Of a stretch of 58,991 bases of DNA, positions 47,589 to 49,426 are shown one piece after another. The notes under the pieces were generated by a model that was given only the letters and a program-made list of their open reading frames with translations, made no database searches and had not been told where the DNA came from. Made by a program: the position numbers and the translations under genes. The stretch covers positions 1 to 58,991 of the forward strand of contig NZ_JAGQCS010000013.1 in assembly GCF_024346315.1 (NCBI RefSeq), given 5' to 3'. Each line of letters begins with the position of its first letter. Position 1 is the stretch's first letter. The stretch is from Cyanobium sp. ATX 6F1 (GTDB taxonomy: Bacteria; Cyanobacteriota; Cyanobacteriia; PCC-6307; Cyanobiaceae).

Positions 47589-47822
47589 ATGGTTCAACCG
47601 GAACAGGTGAAGGCGGCGATCATCGAATCCCTGCCCGATGCCCAGGTGGAGGTGGAAGACCTCACCGGTGGCGGTGATCACCTGCAGGTGAAGGTGGTCT
47701 CCAGCGCCTTCGATGGACTGTCCAGGGTGCGCCAACACCAGCTCGTCTACGGCGCCCTGCGCCGGGAACTGGCCAGTGAAGCCATCCACGCCCTTGCCCT
47801 GCAAACCTCCCTTCCCACCTGA
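47589..47822 (+). CDS. bolA: BolA-family protein
   Basis: BolA proteins pair with monothiol glutaredoxins to bind [2Fe-2S] clusters in iron and redox regulation. The product is 77 residues. The start [20 protein letters not shown] and the [12 protein letters not shown] helix with its conserved His are family hallmarks. grxD follows 9 bases later, the usual partnership. Confidence 0.93.
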
Positions 47823-47831
47823 ACTCGAACC

Positions 47832-48155
47832 ATGGATCCCGCCGTTCAGCAACGCATCGACGCGCTCATTGCCAGCAGCCCCGTGGTGGTGTTCATCAAG
47901 GGCACCAAGCTGATGCCCCAGTGCGGTTTCTCCAACAACGTGGTGCAGATCCTCAATTCCCTGGCGGTGCCGTTCGAAAGCTTCGACGTGCTCTCCGACG
48001 GGGAGATCCGCCAGGGGATCAAGGAGTTCTCCGAGTGGCCCACGATTCCGCAGGTCTACGTGAACGGAGAGTTCCTCGGCGGCTCGGACATCCTGATCGA
48101 GCTGTACAACTCGGGCGAACTGCGCGAAACGCTCGCGGTGGCCCTGGCCTCCTGA
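47832..48155 (+). CDS. grxD: Monothiol glutaredoxin, Grx4 type (CGFS)
   Basis: The product is 107 residues. The active site CGFS is in LMPQCGFSNN, FIKGTKLMP precedes it, and EWPTIPQVYVNGEFLGGSD holds the cis-Pro and glutathione contacts. CGFS glutaredoxins bind and pass on [2Fe-2S] clusters. It follows bolA closely. Confidence 0.96.
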   Translation: MDPAVQQRIDALIASSPVVVFIKGTKLMPQCGFSNNVVQILNSLAVPFESFDVLSDGEIRQGIKEFSEWPTIPQVYVNGEFLGGSDILIELYNSGELRETLAVALAS

Positions 48156-48204: not shown

Positions 48205-48471
48205 TCAGTTGCGGCCGCTCTCGTAGAGGCTGCTGAGGCTGCCGTCGGGGCCGATGAAACTGGAGGGATCGAGGATCCAGCGATCAATCAGCTCCTCGAG
48301 CCGCCGCTGGGAAATCGGGTCGAGGATGGCGGTGCGCCGCAGGGCGTGGAGGTAACCATCGGCGTAGAGCCTCAGTTCCGAGGGGCCGTGGTAGCGACTG
48401 GCCAGGTCCTGGCAGGCATCACAGAGGGACTGAAAGTGGCGGATGGCGTCGGTGTTCTGCAGGGCTGTCAT
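48205..48471 (-). CDS. Conserved cyanobacterial protein (DUF6761-like)
   Basis: The product is 88 residues, all-helical by eye. The ATG at 48471 begins MTALQNTDAIRHFQSL, then ELRLYADGYLHALRR and QRRLEELIDRWI. I associate the pattern with a family named DUF6761, from memory. It is divergent from the response regulator, with about 139 bases between that could hold both promoters. Confidence 0.75.
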   Translation of the reverse strand: MTALQNTDAIRHFQSLCDACQDLASRYHGPSELRLYADGYLHALRRTAILDPISQRRLEELIDRWILDPSSFIGPDGSLSSLYESGRN

Positions 48472-48610
48472 GAACGGGCCAGGGAGCCTCTGAAACCATG
48501 GTGAAGCAGTTGGCGCGCAAGGGGAAGGGGGGACAGCTCGAAAGGCATCGCCTGGGACCGGAGAACGCACCGACTGTTCTATAGCGTAGGTAAAAGGCCG
48601 GCTTGAGCGT

Positions 48611-49426
48611 GTGGAACTGCCACCGAAACCCATCCCGATCCAATCGGCCCCTGCCGATGGCACGGCCCTGACCGCCGCCGCCGTGGACGACCCCACCCTC
48701 AAGCGGGTGCTGGTGGTGGATCCCCACCCCACCCTGCGCACGGTGCTGGCCCAGCGGCTGCGCCAGGACGGCCACCTCACCGCCGCCGTGGCCAGCTCCA
48801 TTGAGGCGCTGCAACTCTGTGAAGAGCTCACCCCCGACCTGCTGGTGAGTGCCGAGTTGCTGGAGGAAAGCTCCGCCCTGCGCCTGGCGGGCCAGTTGCG
48901 TTGCCCGGTGATGGTGCTCACGGCCCGCTCCGGGGCCGAGCCGATCGTCGCCCTGCTCGATGCCGGCGCCGACGACGTGCTGCGCAAGCCCTTCGGCCTC
49001 GAGGAACTGGCGGCCCGTTGCCGCAACCTGTTGCGCCGCAATGGCAGCGGCCTGCAGGAGCGGGTCTGCGTGGGCCCCCTGGATGTGCATGTGCTGCTGC
49101 GCCAGGTGACCCTGCGGGAGGAACCGGTGGAACTCAGCCCGCGGGAATTCGCCCTGCTCTGCGCCCTGCTGATGCCCCCTGGGGTGGTGCGCAGCCGTCA
49201 AGAGTTGTTGCGCATGGCCTGGCCCCCGTTCAGCGGCGGCCCCCGCTCGGTGGACACCCAGGTGCTCACCCTGCGGCGCAAGCTGGAGCAGGCGGGTCTG
49301 GGGGAAGGTGGCGGCATCGAAACGGTGCGCCAGCAGGGCTACCGCTTCAGCCTCGAAACCCTGCCGGAGGCCAGCAGCAGCCCAGCCGTCTCAGCAACCC
49401 TGGGTCAACCCGCCGGCGCCAGCTGA
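48611..49426 (+). CDS. OmpR/PhoB-family response regulator with degenerate receiver
   Basis: The product is 271 residues with a GTG start. A receiver (about residues 31-140) precedes a winged-helix DNA-binding domain with ELSPREFALLCAL and the recognition region RSVDTQVLTLRRKLEQ, then IETVRQQGYRF. In the receiver the expected phosphoacceptor Asp is Ala81 (PDLLVSAEL), and the acidic pair is VVDPHP rather than DD. The Thr and the LRKPF Lys remain. It probably does not use His-Asp phosphorelay in the ordinary way. No kinase is adjacent. Confidence 0.88.
   Translation: MELPPKPIPIQSAPADGTALTAAAVDDPTLKRVLVVDPHPTLRTVLAQRLRQDGHLTAAVASSIEALQLCEELTPDLLVSAELLEESSALRLAGQLRCPVMVLTARSGAEPIVALLDAGADDVLRKPFGLEELAARCRNLLRRNGSGLQERVCVGPLDVHVLLRQVTLREEPVELSPREFALLCALLMPPGVVRSRQELLRMAWPPFSGGPRSVDTQVLTLRRKLEQAGLGEGGGIETVRQQGYRFSLETLPEASSSPAVSATLGQPAGAS

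Follow-up and report, generated by a model that had tools for sequence, protein, structure and literature searches.

An aspartate-less OmpR-type response regulator conserved in Cyanobiaceae and probably orthologous to NrrA/Rre37

The window analyzed here, a stretch of 58,991 nucleotides on contig 13 of the 2.96-Mb genome of Cyanobium sp. ATX 6F1, carries a gene for a response regulator of 271 amino acids that begins with a GTG codon (Table 1). The protein contains a PF00072 receiver (51.6 bits against a cut-off of 30.2, residues 33-136) and a PF00486 (Trans_reg_C) winged helix (59.5 bits against 26.2, residues 171-246), and with both domains above their curated cut-offs it belongs to the OmpR/PhoB type. 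A preliminary description of this DNA had called the DNA-binding domain normal, and this is well supported. The nearest relative among the genomes searched apparently comes from the same genus, and its regulator is 89% identical. Among solved structures, those most similar in sequence come from ordinary OmpR/PhoB regulators, for example PrrA and MtrA. None of the best 25 of 71 NCBIfam families reached its own cut-off with this protein, and an identity as NblR was rejected, as the score of 73.1 bits with the NblR equivalog fell short of its cut-off of 300.

Table 1. Features at the regulator locus, in window coordinates
Feature	Position	Strand	Basis
BolA-like gene, near neighbor	47589..47822	+	PF01722
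Glutaredoxin gene, conserved near neighbor	47832..48155	+	PF00462; synteny
DUF6761 gene, divergent neighbor, conserved pair with the regulator	48205..48471	-	PF20547, 115.9 bits; synteny
NtcA-like site GCA-N8-GAC (common Cyanobiaceae form GCA-N8-TAC; other cyanobacteria GTA-N8-TAC)	48545..48558	+	Motif counts
-10-like element TAGCGT (TAN3T), 23 bases past the NtcA-like site	48582..48587	+	Consensus match only
OmpR-type response regulator, aspartate-less receiver, NrrA-related	48611..49426	+	ORF, Pfam, alignments, tree
Pseudo-receiver domain, residues 32-143	48704..49039	+	PF00072 and alignments
Altered acidic pair, codons D37-P38	48719..48724	+	Alignment of 110 Cyanobiaceae proteins
Ala81 codon, phospho-Asp position	48851..48853	+	Alignment of 110 Cyanobiaceae proteins
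Winged-helix DNA-binding domain, residues 162-248, nearly invariant in Cyanobiaceae	49094..49354	+	PF00486

Eight of the nine other receivers encoded in the same genome served as the reference for the receiver, and the ninth was judged by eye. In the alignment, the phospho-Asp column holds seven Asp and one Glu in the eight reference receivers, while the regulator has Ala81; the ninth receiver has Asp. The absence of Asp at this site, proposed from the window alone, is therefore borne out by alignment with these receivers. In the motif VVDPHP, which the same description noted in place of the acidic pair, the second acid has become Pro38 and the first is retained as D37. Thr104 and Lys126 are also retained, and the position of the Tyr/Phe switch is occupied by Val123.

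These changes are shared by the whole family. Cyanobiaceae loci numbered 113 and gave 110 distinct proteins after three identical ones were dropped. Position 81 is Ala in 106 of these, Ser in three, Thr in one and Asp in none; position 38 is Pro in 109 and Ala in one; and position 37 is Asp in 70 and Glu in 40. Glu82, Thr104, Val123 and Lys126 are each present in 110/110 proteins, and His39 was found in 33/33 sequences. Eight additional Cyanobiaceae genomes, inspected by eye, also have Ala at the phospho-Asp site. The regulator is thus not a canonical phosphorylation-activated one, as P38 and A81 break the set of five conserved residues. A receiver in which one or more of the five are missing is termed a pseudo-receiver and one without the Asp is termed aspartate-less (PMC12632262), and the Cyanobiaceae proteins fit both terms. 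Such family-wide conservation of the Asp-less form speaks against a sequencing error or a decaying pseudogene. Furthermore, Thr104, Lys126 and the DNA-binding domain (mean identity of 0.94 in a sample of 11 Cyanobiaceae proteins) are nearly invariant in a set of proteins without a single Asp at position 81, which argues that selection keeps the protein without its phosphorylation site. The earlier claim that Asp phosphorylation cannot serve as the switch is well supported.

The remodeled pocket could itself be the point of control, with a ligand or protein partner acting on it as in the pseudo-receivers of KaiA and CikA or in JadR1 (PMC12632262). Fixation of one particular set of residues (P38, H39, A81, E82 and V123) is what would be expected if the pocket served something. 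However, structural needs would also lead to such fixation, and the gene neighborhood offers no candidate ligand or partner, so that we consider this explanation unlikely.

The gene was present in 30/30 Cyanobiaceae genomes that are at least 90% complete (22 and 8 in two sets). Among less complete genomes of the family, it was not found in three (71-85% complete) and was seen as a contig-end fragment in one (64%). It is retained in genomes of 1.6-1.8 Mb, which we infer to be Prochlorococcus-like, where only five or six related regulators are found. Two public bins (L090 and L091), titled Rubripirellula sp. and Bifidobacterium breve, also carry the Cyanobiaceae gene, with 79% and 86% identity; because of this, the bins are probably contaminated or mislabeled.

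Between 47589 and 48471 of the window, BolA-like, glutaredoxin and DUF6761 genes lie beside the regulator, and linkage with the DUF6761 and glutaredoxin genes recurs in many other cyanobacteria. DUF6761 adjoins the regulator in 33/33 distinct Cyanobiaceae loci. The comparison group consisted of an OmpR-type regulator of non-Cyanobiaceae genomes in the same class, referred to here as the outer group; its residues and gene order were read from 124 loci in 117 genomes, seven genomes having been fetched twice. In the outer stretches, which vary in length, DUF6761 occurs at no fewer than 65 of the 124 loci and glutaredoxin (Grx4) at no fewer than 38, and gene order with respect to these two neighbors is as expected for a single orthologue group.

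The presence of BolA-like and glutaredoxin genes nearby brings up another possible mode of control, in which two invariant cysteines, Cys70 in alpha2 and Cys184 in the DNA-binding domain, sense redox state. Each is found in 110/110 Cyanobiaceae proteins, compared to 1/124 and 0/124 outer loci, respectively, and redox control through other cysteines has precedents in RitR (PMC12632262) and in the thioredoxin-linked RpaA, RpaB and ManR (PMC4361706). The alpha3 cysteine described in PMC4361706 is absent, however, as residues 86-96 of the regulator contain no Cys, and the glutaredoxin neighbor also occurs at outer loci that have neither Cys70 nor Cys184. Both cysteines may be buried, a point on which the AlphaFold2 model, built with 33 close sequences as input, is too poor to tell (mean pLDDT of 51). 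Redox sensing is perhaps even less probable than control through the pocket.

At the protein level, the link to the outer group is carried by the DNA-binding domain and the recognition helix. The best match of the window protein belongs to the outer group in 19 of 23 non-Cyanobiaceae genomes, with 34-41% identity, though the preference is modest (1e-28 to 1e-39 against approximately 1e-30 to 1e-32 for the best other regulators). A profile of 19 outer proteins found an orthologue at E ≤3e-109 in 116 of the 130 non-Cyanobiaceae genomes of the class. In the other 14 its hits were no better than a partial match at about 1e-81 or paralogue-level ones from 1e-70, and in 16 Cyanobiaceae it gave only 1e-49 to 1e-53. 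Identity to the outer group is 0.45 in the DNA-binding domain and 0.65 in the recognition helix, compared to 0.32 and 0.43 with paralogues (own-genome ones for the helix).

These data also bear on the possibility that a separate OmpR regulator displaced NrrA at the same locus and is not an orthologue. Two measures fail to separate the regulator from its paralogues and would agree with displacement: profile scores of 15 Cyanobiaceae proteins (147-180 bits) are not above those of paralogues (68-174 bits for eight from the window genome and 184 for L060), and receiver identity is 0.33 both to the outer group and to the paralogues. Against displacement, the neighbors are the same, the promoter layout is the same and the spacing very similar (mostly 23 bases, against mostly 22 in outer loci), and both groups have an AWP-short-loop-PR(S/T)VDT segment in the alignment as read by eye. 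Furthermore, a tree of 48 rows, nine of them paralogues, joined Cyanobiaceae and the outer group with support of 99/95, apart from L060 and eight paralogues from the window genome. The Cyanobiaceae stem is very long in this tree (4.55 changes per column), so that long-branch effects may contribute to the grouping. Taken with gene order, promoter layout and the common segment, the tree leaves displacement very improbable, and we proceed with orthology to the outer group.

The identity of the outer group follows from its promoters and from published work. Upstream stretches were collected for 116 outer loci, leaving out identical proteins and one locus too near a contig end. The pattern GTAN8TAC-N20..24-TAN3T was present in 94 of them, compared to shuffle means of 1.1 and 1.2, and this is the canonical layout of NtcA-activated promoters (PMC3898017). 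The promoters of Anabaena nrrA and Synechocystis rre37 are both bound by NtcA, and the two genes are orthologues with roles in glycogen and sugar catabolism (PMC4295605; PMC3898017). Homologues of Rre37 have been reported in all thermophilic cyanobacteria studied (PMC9953108). The published forward primer for Rre37 (PMC4361706) encodes MNPVYI, which resembles the VYIQI start of two outer proteins (L191 and L194), and Cys66 of Rre37, listed in the same paper, fits the outer group by counting in L191. The primer itself matched 0/38 genomes of one family, and two outer-group proteins had no NCBIfam family above cut-off among the matches listed. Collectively, the NtcA-type promoter and the published facts point strongly to the outer group as NrrA/Rre37, an activator of glycogen breakdown that is induced by NtcA; the name is assigned by these features rather than by direct comparison with the NrrA or Rre37 sequence. 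By analogy, the outer-group regulator in most cyanobacteria probably helps to manage carbon stores when nitrogen runs out.

The promoter of the Cyanobiaceae gene keeps this layout in a modified form. The region between 48472 and 48610, put forward in the preliminary description as a footprinting target for the regulator on its own promoter, does contain a conserved element, but one that looks CRP/NtcA-type and not like an OmpR-type direct repeat. The element was at first read as a free inverted repeat, a reading replaced by the NtcA-like one on the basis of promoter layout counts; inverted-repeat matches inside the neighboring gene do not enter the final figures. Among 109 Cyanobiaceae upstream stretches, with short or identical ones left out, the canonical GTAN8TAC with spacing and -10 element was found in none, so that the promoter does not belong to the canonical class. 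GCAN8TAC in the same layout was present in 63 of the 109 (shuffle mean of 0.1), and in 79 when the first base of the right half was left free (shuffle mean of 1.1), compared to 0/116 for the GCA form in the outer group. These counts were taken over related, non-independent loci, and the shuffles preserve letter content alone. The remaining 46 Cyanobiaceae loci are without the full GCA form, the window among them, since its site ends in GAC and the right half is therefore altered too. The commonest spacing is 23 bases in Cyanobiaceae (49 loci) and 22 in outer loci (76). Of eight further loci, two carried the GCA form, in one case with GAC, and the six others, each of which comes from a small genome, had neither form. 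A relaxed NtcA core, GT-N10-AC with a -10 element, occurred in 0/109 Cyanobiaceae stretches against a shuffle mean of 4.8.

The glnA promoter was used as a control. GTAN8TAC was present in 7/15 Cyanobiaceae and 13/15 other genomes, and in 5 and 13 with spacing and -10 element, while the GCA form with a -10 element was found in 0/15 of either. By eye at four loci, GTT-N8-TAC stands in three other Cyanobiaceae and GTG-N8-CAC in the window genome (L315), where most other cyanobacteria examined have GTAN8TAC. NtcA sites thus appear somewhat relaxed in the Cyanobiaceae lineage, and weak residual binding of NtcA at the GCA form is therefore possible. A search of the window genome with AAGGCATCGCCTGATACC, allowing up to three mismatches, gave five sites, compared to none in a reversed control; one is the promoter site itself, three lie in coding frames as judged by eye, and one is without a locus, and no regulon is claimed.

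Outer-group proteins show partial stages of the same change. Only 6/124 outer loci have Asp as the second acid. The phospho-Asp position holds Asp in 103, Ser in 12, Glu in five, Ala in two and Asn in two, and the Tyr switch and Lys are retained in 124/124. From these counts, the second acid was presumably lost before the phospho-Asp. By the definition in PMC12632262, most of the NrrA-type family are pseudo-receivers, of which the Cyanobiaceae members are aspartate-less. The 21 outer regulators without the phospho-Asp are L041, L054, L183, L225, L228-L231, L234, L236-L239, L241, L246, L250, L252, L254 and L257-L259. The window genome also encodes an OmpR-type paralogue on contig 4 (L007, 1063-2010; receiver at 333250-333585), placed as the sister of L008 in the tree, in which the phospho-Asp position is occupied by Glu, which might act as a phosphomimetic. 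This paralogue may resemble RpaA.

These observations suggest that the Cyanobiaceae protein is an NrrA/Rre37 orthologue which works independently of phosphorylation and is probably controlled by its abundance, a reading to which we assign a probability of roughly 0.6. First, a histidine kinase could not switch the receiver through phospho-Asp, since Ala81 has replaced the phosphoryl acceptor, Pro38 one member of the metal-binding pair and Val123 the aromatic residue of the switch. Second, a receiver unable to take a phosphoryl group together with a highly conserved DNA-binding domain makes it the simplest model that the regulator is active as made, binding DNA unphosphorylated, and is set by its amount. 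Third, output would be determined mainly by transcript amount from a promoter that descends from an NtcA-activated type and in which GCA has replaced the invariant GTA half-site, and the targets would still lie in carbon-reserve metabolism, as for NrrA. Activity set by amount is one of the mechanism classes listed in the review cited above (PMC12632262). The preliminary description had suggested a ligand, a partner or another modification; its premise that Asp phosphorylation is not the switch stands, but the comparison points first to protein amount, given the NtcA-type promoter of the wider orthologue group, of which many Cyanobiaceae retain a modified form. More tentatively, the NrrA family may be drifting out of phosphorelay control across cyanobacteria, with picocyanobacteria having completed the step: phospho-dead, with an ancestral NtcA box that has become a GCA form, bound weakly by NtcA or recognized by another CRP-family factor, and with carbon-reserve control leaving the 2-oxoglutarate/NtcA signal. 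This broader proposal is speculative.

Pseudo-receivers are common, and a 2025 review describes the on/off switching of bacterial ones as a mystery (PMC12632262). Members of the present family range from Asp-bearing to Asp-less and so form a natural series, in which the promoter changes in parallel. The regulator is also among the few response regulators kept by the small-genome members of Cyanobiaceae, and control by abundance or through the pocket becomes directly testable in culturable Synechococcus strains. Among the matches listed, as titles and starts of abstracts, none described the Cyanobiaceae protein as aspartate-less or assigned it to NrrA by orthology, a survey with most subscription literature outside its scope and thus weak evidence of absence. 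Three papers on marine picocyanobacteria mention Rre37 in the references only, and neither NrrA nor Rre37 is named in the main text of two papers on pseudo-receivers.

Compared to known systems, the Cyanobiaceae regulator is closest to NrrA of Anabaena (all4312) and Rre37 of Synechocystis (sll1330), which are likewise orphan OmpR-type regulators. With the outer group taken as NrrA/Rre37, the locus, DNA-binding domain and promoter layout agree, and the differences are that the outer group has the phospho-Asp in 103/124 loci, the switch Tyr in 124/124 and the canonical GTAN8TAC in 94/116, all of which are absent in Cyanobiaceae. ChxR, HP1043, RitR and FrzS also have receivers without the phospho-Asp; the first three share a DNA-binding output with the Cyanobiaceae regulator, and FrzS shares the Ala at the phospho-Asp site (PMC4395418). 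Unlike these proteins, which belong to other lineages, the Cyanobiaceae regulator carries a change that is fixed across a whole bacterial family, with partial stages in other cyanobacteria. NblR of Synechococcus elongatus is a cyanobacterial atypical regulator reported to be active without phosphorylation (PMC12632262), but it represents a separate family, as the NblR score given above indicates.
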